Positions 28,811 through 53,354 of a stretch of DNA of 64,000 nucleotides are shown here, one piece after another. The DNA is taken from assembly GCF_008838325.1 (NCBI RefSeq), contig NZ_CP042829.1:1-64000 (forward strand). Reading direction: 5' to 3'. Numbering within the stretch: the stretch's first letter is position 1; every line of letters starts with the position of its first letter. The translations under genes were made by a program, and so were the position numbers. The notes under the pieces are model-generated. The model was not told where the DNA came from, did not search any database, and saw only the letters and a list, made by a program, of their open reading frames with translations. This stretch comes from Tepidiforma bonchosmolovskayae (GTDB lineage Bacteria; Chloroflexota; Dehalococcoidia; Tepidiformales; Tepidiformaceae).

Positions 28811-30340
28811 ATGCTCGCCCGCGTCCTGAGCTGTGCGGTCGTCGGGCTCGAAGGCGAGCTCGTCCAGGTCGAGATTGACATTACGCGCGCCCAGCTCCCG
28901 GCAGTGACCGTCGTCGGGCTGCCGGACACCGCGGTCCAGGAGTCGCGCGAACGGGTCCGCGCCGCAATTCGCAACAGCGGACTCGCGTGGCCGGCAAACA
29001 ACCGGGTTACCGTCAACCTTGCCCCAGCCGACCTCCGCAAGGAGGGCCCTGCATACGACCTCCCAATCGCCATCGGCATCCTCGTCGCCTCCGGGCAGGT
29101 TGAGGCGTCCATCGCCGATGCGGTCTTCATCGGCGAGCTCGCGCTGACGGGCGACGTCCGGCCGGTGCGCGGGGTGCTGCCGATGGCCATGACTGCGGCG
29201 GCGCACGGGGTGCGCAGGGCGTTCGTGCCGGCCGCCAATGCCGCCGAAGCCGCGCTCGTCGACGACCTCACGGTCTACCCGGTTGAATCGCTCGCGAGCG
29301 TCGTCGCCCATCTCAACGGCGCGTCCCGCCTCGCGGCCTGCACGGCCCCGCCCCCGGGCGGCGGCCACGACCCGGCCTGGGTCGCCACCGATTTCGCCGA
29401 CATCGTCGGGCAGGAGCACGTGAAGCGCGCGCTTGAAGTGGCCGCTGCCGGCGGACACAACGTCGTCATGAAGGGACCGCCCGGCAGCGGGAAGACGCTG
29501 CTCGCCCGGGCTGTTCCCGGCATTCTGCCGCCGCTCACCACCAGCGAGGCGATGGAGGTCACCCGCATTTACAGCGTCGCCGGGCTCCTGAGCCCGGGAA
29601 CGGGGCTCGTGACGGCCCGGCCGTTCCGGGCACCGCACCACACCATCTCGAACGCCGGGCTCATCGGCGGAGGGTCGGTCCCCCGGCCCGGCGAAATCAC
29701 GCTCGCCCACCGCGGCGTGCTCTTCCTCGATGAGCTGCTCGAGTTCGACCCGCACGTCCTCGAGATGCTCCGGCAGCCGCTTGAGGACAAGATGGTCACC
29801 ATCAGCCGGGCGAAACAGGCGGTGACCTTTCCCGCAAGTTTCATGCTTTGTGCAGCGCTCAACCCGTGCCCATGCGGGTACCTTGGCGACCCCGAGCGCG
29901 CGTGTACGTGCCCGCCGACGGTAGTCGGGCGGTACCAGCGCCGGCTAAGCGGCCCGTTGATGGACCGGATCGACCTGTTCGTCGATGTCCCGCGGGTGCC
30001 GTTCGACCGGCTGAGCAGCGCAATGCGTGGCGAACCGTCCGCCGCCGTCCGCGAACGGGTGACGGCAGCCCGCGAAATCCAGGCGCGGCGTTTCGCCGGG
30101 ACCCGTACGTCGACCAACGGTGAGATGACCCCGGCCCAGGTGCGGGATTTCGCGCAGCTGCAGATGGAGCCGGCGGCGGCCGAGCTGGTCAAGCGAGCGG
30201 TGGAGCGGCTGAACCTCTCTGCGCGGGCGTTCCACCGGGTTTTGAAAGTTGCGAGGACGATTGCCGACCTTGCCGGCTCCCCGACAATTGCCGCCGCCCA
30301 CATGGCCGAAAGCATCCAGTACCGCGCCAGGCTGGACTGA
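28811..30340 (+). CDS. comM: YifB/ComM-family Mg-chelatase-like AAA ATPase
   Basis: A 509-residue protein of the ComM/YifB family: an N-terminal Lon-like/subunit ChlI domain (residues 1-170), an AAA+ core with Walker A GPPGSGKTLLA near residue 222 and a C-terminal Mg-chelatase domain ending with a basic-helix bundle. ComM is the branch-migration helicase that extends recombination in natural transformation. The ATG at 28811 has no ribosome site; TACAAT lies six bases before. Competence genes are not in the window. Confidence 0.93.
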   Translation: MLARVLSCAVVGLEGELVQVEIDITRAQLPAVTVVGLPDTAVQESRERVRAAIRNSGLAWPANNRVTVNLAPADLRKEGPAYDLPIAIGILVASGQVEASIADAVFIGELALTGDVRPVRGVLPMAMTAAAHGVRRAFVPAANAAEAALVDDLTVYPVESLASVVAHLNGASRLAACTAPPPGGGHDPAWVATDFADIVGQEHVKRALEVAAAGGHNVVMKGPPGSGKTLLARAVPGILPPLTTSEAMEVTRIYSVAGLLSPGTGLVTARPFRAPHHTISNAGLIGGGSVPRPGEITLAHRGVLFLDELLEFDPHVLEMLRQPLEDKMVTISRAKQAVTFPASFMLCAALNPCPCGYLGDPERACTCPPTVVGRYQRRLSGPLMDRIDLFVDVPRVPFDRLSSAMRGEPSAAVRERVTAAREIQARRFAGTRTSTNGEMTPAQVRDFAQLQMEPAAAELVKRAVERLNLSARAFHRVLKVARTIADLAGSPTIAAAHMAESIQYRARLD

Positions 30341-30412
30341 GGGGGGATGGGCCAGGCTCGTGTCACCGGCCGCACCTGGACGGAGTCGGCCCGGCCTGCA
30401 CCGGGCATACTC

Positions 30413-30435
30413 CCCCGGACGGCCCGCGTCCGGGG
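30413..30435. terminator. Eight-bp hairpin after comM
   Basis: CCCCGGAC (30413-30420) and GTCCGGGG (30428-30435) form a perfect stem with a seven-base loop, 73 bases after the comM stop, without a T-run. It probably ends or buffers comM transcription. Confidence 0.4.
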
Positions 30436-30484
30436 CTGGACCCTGCCTCGCCCGGGCCGGCCGGCGACAGCCGTCGACGTTTTT

Positions 30485-30552
30485 CGAACATTTGTGTTGA
30501 CAGTCGCACATCCGTTCGCATAGGCTCTCCCCAGCTTTCGAACGGATGTGCG
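30485..30552 (+). promoter_or_regulatory. Promoter with three LexA-like boxes
   Basis: The -35 TTGACA is at 30497-30502 and the -10 TAGGCT at 30521-30526. Three boxes of the CGAAC-N4-GTTCG (Gram-positive LexA) type cover it: CGAACATTTGTGTT (30485-30498), CGCACATCCGTTCG (30505-30518) and CGAACGGATGTGCG (30539-30552). The second and third are exact reverse complements of each other. Centre spacing is 20 and 34 bases. LexA binding would block the -35, the spacer and the start region. Confidence 0.6.
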
Positions 30553-30556
30553 CATC

Positions 30557-30769
30557 ATGGTCAATCCGCTCCTCACCGTCCTCGTCGACCTCGCCCTGGT
30601 CGGCGGCGCGCTCTTCATCGCAGCGGCAATGGTCGCTGAAGCGTGGACCGACCGTCGCCCCAGTGTGGGGTCACGCCGGCCCGGCCGAGCGACTCAATCA
30701 GGTCGCCCTGAAAGCGCCGGAAGGCGTCTCCAGCTGCGGTACGCCGTCGGAAGCCGCCGTGTGGCCTGA
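30557..30769 (+). CDS. Small LexA-boxed membrane protein, candidate SOS division inhibitor
   Basis: A 70-residue protein with one hydrophobic helix at about residues 5-28 (LLTVLVDLALVGGALFIAAAM) and a 40-residue arginine-rich cytoplasmic tail. No family is recognised. It is the only gene behind the LexA-like promoter at 30485-30552, and small membrane proteins in that position are often SOS-induced cell-division inhibitors (SulA, YneA, SidA are unrelated examples of the same idea). A GTG at 30548 lies inside the third box, so ATG 30557 is the chosen start. The stop is one base before the end of the converging rel gene. Confidence 0.7.
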   Translation: MVNPLLTVLVDLALVGGALFIAAAMVAEAWTDRRPSVGSRRPGRATQSGRPESAGRRLQLRYAVGSRRVA

Positions 30770-30770
30770 A

Positions 30771-33035
30771 TCAGGGCGCAGTTCGCCGCAGGGGGACGGT
30801 CTGACCGTCGGGAAGCGGCTTGCGCCGCCGTTCCTGCACCCGCTCAACGGACCGAACACCGCGGACAATTTCGATGCGCGAAAGGAGCCGCGACAACTGC
30901 TCAATGCCCGTCGTCTCGAGGGTGGTGGTGATAGTGACCGAGCCGTCGCCGTTTTCGATAGTTCGAACACCGACCATGTTGACTTTCTCGTCGGTGACGA
31001 CCGTGGTGATGTCCCGGAGGAGACCGACCCGGTCCCAGGCCTCAATCCGCACCGAGACCGGATACGTGCGGGTGACCGTCCCCCACTCGACCTCGACGAT
31101 CCGCTCGCGTTCAGCCTCATTCAACACGTTGAGACAGTCGGCCCGGTGGACGCTGACGCCTCGAGAGCGGGTCACATAGCCGATGATCTGGTCGCCCGGG
31201 ACGGGGTTGCAGCAGCGGGCCATGGTGGTGAGCAGGTTCCCGACCCCAAGGACGCGCATCCCCGGGCCGCCCAGCTTTGCCGGTTCCTGCTTCTGCGGGA
31301 GCTCGGGCGGGGCCTCGGCCTCCGCCTCTTCCCGTTCGATGACGGCTGCGACCTTACGGGCGATGCTGTTGGTGCTGATGCCCCCGTAGCCGATGGCTGC
31401 GAGGAAGTCTTCCCAGCTGGTGTAATTGAAGAGGGAAAGGAGCTGCTCCTGCCGCTCCGAGACGTCCCATCCAAGCCGTTTGAGCTCTTTTTCGAGCATC
31501 TCGCGGCCGCGCTCGATATTTTCGGCCCGCTCCTGCTTGCGGAACCATTGCCGGATCTTCTCCCGCGAGTGAGCCGTGCGGATGTAGCCGAGGTTCTGGT
31601 TGAGCCAGTCGCGGGAGGGCCCCTTGCTCGTCCGGCTCCGCAGAATCTCGACGACATCGCCGGTCTTCAGCGGTGAGTTGAGCGGCACCATCCGGCCGTT
31701 CACCTTCGCGCCCACGGTCTGGTGCCCGAGGTCGGTGTGGATGCGATAGGCAAAGTCCAGCGGGGTTGCCCCGGCCGGGAGGTCCAGCACATCGCCCTTC
31801 GGCGTGTAGACGAACACCTGGTCGTGGAAGATGTCCGTTTTGACCGATTCCACGAATTCGTCGGCGCCGGCGAGGTCGCGCTGCCACTCGATGAGCTGGC
31901 GCAGCCAGGCGATACGCTCCTCATCGCGGCCGGCCTGCCTGCCGCCCTCCTTGTACCGCCAGTGGGCGGCGACGCCGTACTCGGCAACCCGGTGCATCTC
32001 CCAGGTCCGAATCTGGATTTCGAGCGGCCGGCCTCCCGGCCCAACCACGGTGGTGTGGAGCGACTGGTACATCGAGTCCTTCGGGTTCCCGATGTAGTCG
32101 TCGAACTGCCCGGGGATGGGCCGCCAGAGGGCATGGATCACACCCAGGGCGTGATAGCACTCAGAGACCGTATCGACGAAGACCCGCATGGCCAGGAGGT
32201 CGTAGATTTGGTCGAAGCTCTTCGACTGGGCCGAGTAGCGGCGCATCTTCTGGTAAATGCTGTAGATATGCTTCGCCCGCCCGGTGACCTCCGCCGTAAT
32301 GCCGGCCGCTTCAAGGTGCTCCTTGAGAATGGCTGAGGCCTCCGCGATGACCCGCTCGCGCGTGACGCGCTTCGAAGCGAGCAGCTCCGCAATCTCCCGG
32401 TACTTCTCGGGCTCCAGGTAGCGGAAGGCGAGGTCTTCGAGCTCCCACTTGATCTGCCAGACGCCGAGCCGGCTCGCGAGCGGCGCGAAGATCTCCTGCG
32501 TTTCGAGGGCGATGCGCCGCTGCTTTTCGGGCGGGAACGCCCAGAGCGTCCGCATGTTGTGCAGTCGGTCGCACAGCTTGATGAGGACGACGCTCAGGTC
32601 CTCGGCCATAGCGAGGAACATCTTGCGCAGGTTCTGGGCCTGCGTTGTTCCCCGCATCGGGTCCAGTTCCGCGACGTTCATCGGGAGCTTGTCGAGCTTC
32701 GTCAACGCATCGACGAGCTTCGCGACGCGCGGCCCAAACCGTTCCGCGATCTCTTCGTTCCGAACGCCGCAGTCCTCCTGGACATCGTGCAGGAGGGCAG
32801 CAGCGATGGCGAGGTGGTCGAGTTCGAGGTTGGCGACAAGTTCGGCGACCGCGACCGGGTGCGTGATGTAGGGGTCGCCGGTCTTCCGGAACTGCCCTTC
32901 GTGATGGCGGGCCGCAAATTCGAACGCGTCGCGGATGATGTCGAGGCGCTCCGCCGGGAGGTACTTGCCTGCGCGCTCCAGCAGGGCGTCAATGGTGACG
33001 CTGGCTACAGCGGGCTCTCCTTGGCTGACGGACAT
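30771..33035 (-). CDS. rel: Bifunctional (p)ppGpp synthetase/hydrolase Rel
   Basis: A 754-residue Rel/SpoT protein controlling (p)ppGpp, the stringent-response alarmone. In order: HD hydrolase (HHEGQFRKTGDPYITHP and LLHDVQED intact, about residues 35-190), synthetase domain (SMYQSLHTTVVG and LEIQIRTWEMHRVAEYGVAAHW), TGS (QVFVYTPKGDVLDLPAGATP), helical and zinc-finger regions (ARCCNPVPGDQI), and a C-terminal ACT (VGLLRDITTVVTDE). HDVQED is a slight variant of the usual HDVVED. ATG 33035 follows AAGAGG; the promoter's -10 TAGGAT lies at 33078-33073 and overlaps that of hisS. Confidence 0.95.
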   Translation of the reverse strand: MSVSQGEPAVASVTIDALLERAGKYLPAERLDIIRDAFEFAARHHEGQFRKTGDPYITHPVAVAELVANLELDHLAIAAALLHDVQEDCGVRNEEIAERFGPRVAKLVDALTKLDKLPMNVAELDPMRGTTQAQNLRKMFLAMAEDLSVVLIKLCDRLHNMRTLWAFPPEKQRRIALETQEIFAPLASRLGVWQIKWELEDLAFRYLEPEKYREIAELLASKRVTRERVIAEASAILKEHLEAAGITAEVTGRAKHIYSIYQKMRRYSAQSKSFDQIYDLLAMRVFVDTVSECYHALGVIHALWRPIPGQFDDYIGNPKDSMYQSLHTTVVGPGGRPLEIQIRTWEMHRVAEYGVAAHWRYKEGGRQAGRDEERIAWLRQLIEWQRDLAGADEFVESVKTDIFHDQVFVYTPKGDVLDLPAGATPLDFAYRIHTDLGHQTVGAKVNGRMVPLNSPLKTGDVVEILRSRTSKGPSRDWLNQNLGYIRTAHSREKIRQWFRKQERAENIERGREMLEKELKRLGWDVSERQEQLLSLFNYTSWEDFLAAIGYGGISTNSIARKVAAVIEREEAEAEAPPELPQKQEPAKLGGPGMRVLGVGNLLTTMARCCNPVPGDQIIGYVTRSRGVSVHRADCLNVLNEAERERIVEVEWGTVTRTYPVSVRIEAWDRVGLLRDITTVVTDEKVNMVGVRTIENGDGSVTITTTLETTGIEQLSRLLSRIEIVRGVRSVERVQERRRKPLPDGQTVPLRRTAP

Positions 33036-33072
33036 TGGCAGCGGCCTCTTTGCCGGGGGAAACCTTCTTCTT

Positions 33073-33082
33073 ATCCTAGCAT
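33073..33082. promoter_or_regulatory. Overlapping divergent -10 elements of rel and hisS
   Basis: In ATCCTAGCAT the minus-strand -10 of rel (TAGGAT, 33078-33073) and the plus-strand -10 of hisS (TAGCAT, 33077-33082) share the central TA. The rel leader is about 30 bases and the hisS leader about 23, with AGGA (33102-33105) before ATG 33112. Polymerase can hardly bind both at once. A -35 for hisS is not clear; for rel CTGACG at 33103-33098 is possible with a long spacer. Confidence 0.5.
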
Positions 33083-33111
33083 GCATTCAGCCCCCCACGT
33101 CAGGACATCCG

Positions 33112-53281: not shown

Positions 53282-53295
53282 CGAACATTTGCTCG
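53282..53295. promoter_or_regulatory. LexA-like box upstream of the TTG-start lipoprotein gene
   Basis: CGAACATTTGCTCG matches CGAAC-N4-GTTCG at nine of ten defined positions. One such site per window is expected by chance, so the call is weak. Confidence 0.3.
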
Positions 53296-53354
53296 TAGCC
53301 ACCTGGGGGACCAGCATGGCCCGGGGCATGGCCTCATCGAAAGGAGACACCAGT

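Follow-up and report, generated by a model that had tools for sequence, protein, structure and literature searches.

Small membrane proteins that are induced in the SOS response and inhibit cell division appear to have arisen repeatedly in bacteria, possibly converging on FtsW, which several of the known analogues SidA, YneA, and SosA have been shown or modelled to contact (PMC13396833, PMC4211646, PMC6851548). SosA of Staphylococcus aureus is an SOS-induced protein of 77 aa with one N-terminal helix; it requires its extracellular C-terminal part for activity, and its C-terminus has been implicated in turnover (PMC6851548). The helix of YneA from Bacillus subtilis binds TM7 of FtsW, as modelled, and its extracellular C-terminal part is needed for activity as well (PMC13396833). 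SidA and DidA of Caulobacter crescentus act on the FtsW/FtsI/FtsN complex and are small proteins of the inner membrane with a single helix; sidA is LexA-controlled and its product comprises only 29 aa, whereas didA, encoding a 71-aa protein, is SOS-independent (PMC4211646). YneA and ChiZ of Mycobacterium tuberculosis, both SOS-induced single-pass membrane proteins, carry an extracellular LysM domain. In the papers searched, no SOS-controlled small membrane division inhibitor has been described in Chloroflexota.

Here we analysed a candidate for such a gene in Tepidiforma, a hot-spring bacterium (Chloroflexota, Dehalococcoidia) that, unusually for its class, possesses an S-layer and a peptidoglycan sacculus (PMC10284905). 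The window, i.e., the whole 64-kb stretch of DNA that was analysed, is the start of the 2.75-Mb single-contig genome. A preliminary description had reported three LexA-type boxes at a TTGACA/TAGGCT promoter of a 70-codon ORF, and the coordinates were confirmed as follows:

28811-30340: ComM-like Mg-chelatase ATPase gene (comM), upstream of the small gene
30485-30498, no strand assigned: LexA box 1, CGAACATTTGTGTT, overlapping the -35 hexamer; matrix score 16.5, rank 2 in the window
30497-30502, plus strand: -35 hexamer TTGACA, with TTGAC invariant in 21 members
30505-30518, no strand assigned: LexA box 2, CGCACATCCGTTCG, in the promoter spacer; score 15.6, rank 3
30521-30526, plus strand: -10 hexamer TAGGCT after an 18-nt spacer, its position kept in the upstream alignment
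30539-30552, no strand assigned: LexA box 3, CGAACGGATGTGCG, within the predicted leader and separated by 4 nt from the ATG; score 15.5, rank 4
30557-30769, plus strand: small membrane protein gene, 70 aa, ATG at 30557; helix at residues 4-31 and basic disordered tail
30771-33086, minus strand: rel (RelA/SpoT homologue, by Pfam), the convergent neighbour, context outside the unit

The product of the ORF is MVNPLLTVLVDLALVGGALFIAAAMVAEAWTDRRPSVGSRRPGRATQSGRPESAGRRLQLRYAVGSRRVA, predicted to have a single N-terminal transmembrane helix and a basic tail, as had been claimed and in agreement with its sequence and with AlphaFold, which predicts one helix at residues 4-31 with pLDDT >90 followed by a disordered tail. 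An alternative GTG start at 30548 would extend the protein to 73 aa, yet we prefer the ATG at 30557 because conservation begins there ('MVNP'). Within Tepidiforma, residues 2-38 are under purifying selection (mean pN 0.18, pS 0.47), while the tail evolves more loosely (pN 0.45, pS 0.66). The small ORF is a real gene. A 376-aa ORF at 30546-31676 was discarded as an unconserved antisense frame over rel in which several relatives encounter a stop within a few codons. Sequence searches against Pfam, NCBIfam, PHROG, and PDB returned nothing significant for the small protein and no similarity to any known inhibitor; SosA showed none in the searches run, and a LysM domain had no Pfam match in any of 15 members. 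With the small protein, a new protein family joins a functional kind that is already known.

The unit of promoter and ORF is present in 34 of 38 family genomes, in agreement with the earlier expectation that the short frame is conserved in relatives. By tblastn, the small protein was found in five same-genus genomes and across the family, the same-genus relatives including Tepidiforma flava (NZ_CP115149) and Tepidiforma MAGs. A strict promoter pattern occurs in 28 of the 38 genomes, compared with 0 for the reversed control; G014, G033, G017, and G011 were added by inspection, and G018 and G015 via rel, to arrive at 34. The four genomes without the unit are incomplete assemblies, and a query with the C-terminus of Rel found nothing in three of them and a partial match in the fourth. 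The strict pattern is found once per genome, except for one MAG (G021) with two copies, L021 and L092 on contigs JADZEI010000047 and JADZEI010000024, each beside rel, which perhaps reflects a strain mixture rather than true duplication. Among 294 genomes of the class and 400 of the phylum, we found no convincing member outside the family: weak matches carry stops or sit in long unrelated frames, and the sole short open frame (L175) encodes a generic membrane protein and lacks LexA boxes. Scanning IMG/VR with the small protein gave no relative either.

The boxes had been described as overlaying the promoter. This holds for box 1, whose imperfect right arm runs into the -35 hexamer, and for box 2 in the spacer, but not for box 3, which lies off the hexamers in the predicted 5' leader of about 23 nt. 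Box 2 is the exact reverse complement of box 3, as noted before, and each has one arm off consensus (CGCAC/GTGCG). When scanned with a matrix trained on nine further SOS promoters from this genome (training-site scores 18-23), the three boxes took ranks 2, 3, and 4 in the 64-kb window, with scores of 15.5-16.5 and clustered within 68 bp. In random sequence of the window's dinucleotide composition, one site of such a score per 64 kb arises in 5 to 6 of 20 trials. A single box is unremarkable; three clustered and conserved boxes exceed chance. The tandem-box pattern occurs at two places in the 2.75-Mb genome, the promoter of the small gene and that of uvrA. A simple consensus promoter scan did not list the small-gene promoter because TAGGCT shares only 3-4 of six positions with TATAAT and the spacer measures 18 nt. 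Elsewhere in the window, the top LexA-like site, CGAACATTTGCTCG at 53282-53295 (matrix score 17.3), lies about 70 nt upstream of a possible lipoprotein gene, whose TTG start is near 53354, and may mark a further SOS gene or be due to chance.

A single full LexA, with both the DNA-binding domain and the S24 peptidase, is encoded in the genome. Inspection of the lexA promoter, as had been suggested, revealed CGAACATCCGTTCG, which matches the boxes of the small gene and lies 25 nt ahead of the lexA ATG. Boxes 2 and 3 of the small gene differ at one position from CGAACATCCGTTCG or its reverse complement, and box 3 shares its core, AACGGATGT, with the opposite strand of the lexA operator. In the remaining five Tepidiforma loci, lexA is preceded by CGAACATCCGTTCG as well, and at the other lexA loci of the family that were read we found it or a close variant. 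Palindromes of the type NGAACAnnYGTTCN also precede dnaE2, imuB, uvrA, and the phosphoesterase, helicase, and ribonucleotide reductase genes listed below, with identities derived from Pfam, and GAACN4GTTC occurs 53 times in the genome versus 8 times for the reversed control. The boxed loci, collected from stretches around candidate boxes and hence a non-exhaustive list, are:

916.2-916.9 kb (genome G000, contig C1): lexA
2421.6 kb (G000, C1): recA, with the box AGAACAAATGTTTG
L050: mutS, with the box CGCACATCCGTTCG
L055: dnaE2
L070: imuB
L063: uvrA
L062: SbcD-like phosphoesterase gene
L043 and L035: the two helicase genes, one of them Lhr-like and one for another DEAD helicase
L064: ribonucleotide reductase gene

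Since lexA and repair genes bear similar boxes, sequence identifies the motif as the SOS (LexA) operator of Tepidiforma, and LexA control of the small gene is, by inference, nearly certain. The earlier view of a LexA-boxed promoter thus stands, with the same box at lexA and repair genes and the three-box promoter kept across the family; of the observations that had been named as speaking against it and that are open to computation, a differing LexA motif and an unconserved short frame, neither came out. The regulon, with NGAACAnnYGTTCN as operator and including the ImuB/DnaE2 mutasome and ribonucleotide reductase, provides an initial outline of the LexA box and the SOS genes in the Tepidiforma group, on which no paper was found in the literature searched. 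As a side observation, three features lie together in a mobile-element-like region at 419.9-423 kb (G000, C1; L002, L057, L177): the perfect LexA-type palindrome TAGAACATTAGTTCTA (at about 419920), a short ORF for a membrane protein (near 421237), and the gene of a second protein with a match to the LexA DNA-binding domain (422005).

Aligning 21 upstream regions showed no variation in TTGAC, in GAACA and GT within box 1, or in AACGGATGT within box 3. Box 1 is kept in most members, being lost or weak in the distant G018, G015, G033, and G017; box 2 is kept as GnACnnnnGTnC in nearly all members and is unrecognisable in L023 (G010), and box 3 persists in nearly all. The constancy of AACGGATGT can be explained by strong LexA binding, as it represents the core of the lexA operator; the notion that it mainly serves as a ribosome-binding site is weakened by the presence of the same core on the other strand in that operator. 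Box 3 nonetheless sits at the Shine-Dalgarno place, making a second role in translation possible. Taken at face value, these upstream sequences describe a DNA-damage switch that is unusually tight and strongly conserved. Farther upstream, relatives (loci L093-L097, L099, and L100) have an ORF of about 100 codons in divergent orientation, and a TATACT-like -10 element is conserved there; in the window, this ORF is absent from 30341-30484, with only the remnant CATACTCC left. An IstR-like divergent RNA was considered and rejected, as the conserved divergent promoter of the relatives precedes this ORF and Rfam found nothing.

Members of the family range from 66 to 99 aa. M1, P4, T7, D11, E28, G38, and the final Ala are invariant in a 15-member alignment; with 24 members, M1 and T7 are still invariant, while D11 is sometimes Gln. 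One face of the helix, T7-D11-L14-A18-M25, is conserved (permutation p 0.017), a pattern to be expected of helices engaged in partner recognition. In 32 of 32 distinct members, Lys/Arg residues are lacking before the helix and number 8-18 after it, so that, according to the positive-inside rule, the topology is probably N-out/C-in. The C-termini end in -AA (14/32), -VA or -IA (6/32), or -AS (7/32); it is tempting to speculate that the recurrent -AA/-VA/-AS end is a cytoplasmic C-terminal degron or protease tag. In size and plan, the 70-aa protein resembles DidA (71 aa) and SosA (77 aa), sharing with the latter also SOS control, the single N-terminal helix, conservation next to the helix, and restriction to one lineage; unlike didA, the small gene has LexA boxes. 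With SidA it has in common LexA control, small size, and a single helix, although SidA is much shorter, and with YneA and ChiZ the features, here predicted, of an SOS-induced single-pass membrane protein. It differs from YneA and ChiZ in lacking LysM, and from YneA and SosA in that its basic tail is predicted to be cytoplasmic.

We consider a candidate division inhibitor like SidA, YneA, and SosA the most likely among several readings, one that is consistent with size, single helix, SOS control, vertical inheritance, and a peptidoglycan-bearing host. LexA would occupy three adjacent operators, over the -35 hexamer, between -35 and -10, and in the leader before the start codon, and would, almost certainly, block binding and escape of RNA polymerase. 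Upon DNA damage, RecA would trigger LexA self-cleavage, and expression of the gene would rise along with that of lexA, recA, and the imuB/dnaE2 mutasome. The small protein would insert into the cytoplasmic membrane as one helix, probably N-out/C-in as its charges suggest, and the face formed by T7, D11, L14, A18, and M25 would most likely bind a membrane component of the septal peptidoglycan machinery, with FtsW/FtsI as obvious candidates; three FtsW/RodA-family (SEDS) proteins are encoded in the genome (loci L169-L171). Such binding would delay septation and pause division during DNA repair, after which LexA would re-accumulate and the small protein would be cleared. For the statement as a whole, namely an SOS checkpoint gene under LexA control whose product delays septation via a septal component, we see the chances as evenly balanced. 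A predicted topology opposite to that of YneA and SosA argues against a division role, and an SOS-induced small membrane protein may act on something other than division.

The main named rival is a membrane toxin of the TisB/DinQ type, whose helix would depolarise or disturb the membrane and thereby induce dormancy, with the three operators limiting leakiness. TisB, a peptide of 29 aa, and DinQ of Escherichia coli are LexA-controlled short membrane peptides with antisense RNA partners. LexA control, the single helix, the basic tail, and the (nearly) invariant acidic or polar residue inside the helix (D11 or Q) would fit such a toxin, but neither an antisense RNA partner nor a long structured leader was seen at the small gene, its leader of about 23 nt giving no Rfam match and the divergent promoter of the relatives preceding the ORF of about 100 codons. 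Antisense transcription from rel read-through is possible. A toxin would less typically show conservation at the C-terminus and near-universal vertical inheritance, and we regard this explanation as quite unlikely. Another SOS membrane effector with no direct division role, such as a small protein regulating a transporter, a protease, or an enzyme of the envelope, is unlikely as well, yet deserves to be taken seriously: small membrane proteins often modulate larger ones, and the conserved helix face would fit any partner. However, nothing specific indicates another partner, and the multi-operator promoter suggests a product that is costly when leaky, as would suit the proposed inhibitor.

The genomic neighbourhood bears on the further possibility that the unit partly acts as RNA, such that an SOS transcript antisense to the rel 3' end lowers Rel and so couples ppGpp with DNA damage, and the small gene is in turn silenced by read-through from rel. 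The stop codons of the small gene and rel lie 1 nt apart (window 30767-30773), and, in keeping with the earlier suggestion of a short membrane gene next to rel in relatives, 28 of 32 distinct members are arranged tail-to-tail with rel, the distance between the stop codons being -4 to +5 nt in most of them; the copies of G015 and G018 likewise reside in the rel locus. The convergent transcripts thus probably overlap, in a possible mutual antisense arrangement, and rel stays in place in some genera in which the upstream comM is inverted or absent. Against an RNA role, promoter and gene lie elsewhere, away from rel, in L014, L015, L020, and L022, a tight convergent pair is also retained for the simple reason that separating it disrupts a gene, and selection at the codon level shows that the protein matters; we consider it improbable. 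The four relocated members, with the same promoter, also led us to dismiss rel adjacency as essential: with both the rel and comM neighbours varying, promoter plus ORF is the invariant unit. That the boxes arose by chance and the ORF is spurious has a vanishingly small probability. A single site of such a score can indeed occur in 64 kb of the same composition, but three clustered boxes, gene and promoter in 34 of 38 family genomes, and codon-level selection speak otherwise, and this explanation is refuted by the conservation.

Returning to the division-inhibitor reading, the small protein could be a new division-checkpoint protein of Chloroflexota that arose independently of SulA, SidA, YneA, and SosA, works through its membrane helix, and is distinguished by an inverted topology, a cytoplasmic basic tail, a three-operator LexA promoter whose third operator shapes the leader, and a location that is usually tail-to-tail with rel; we advance this tentatively, at somewhat less than an even chance. 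Tepidiforma is a cultivable genus that has retained peptidoglycan, which its cultivated relatives have lost, and a lineage-specific inhibitor in Chloroflexota, if true, would provide an independent test of convergence on FtsW.
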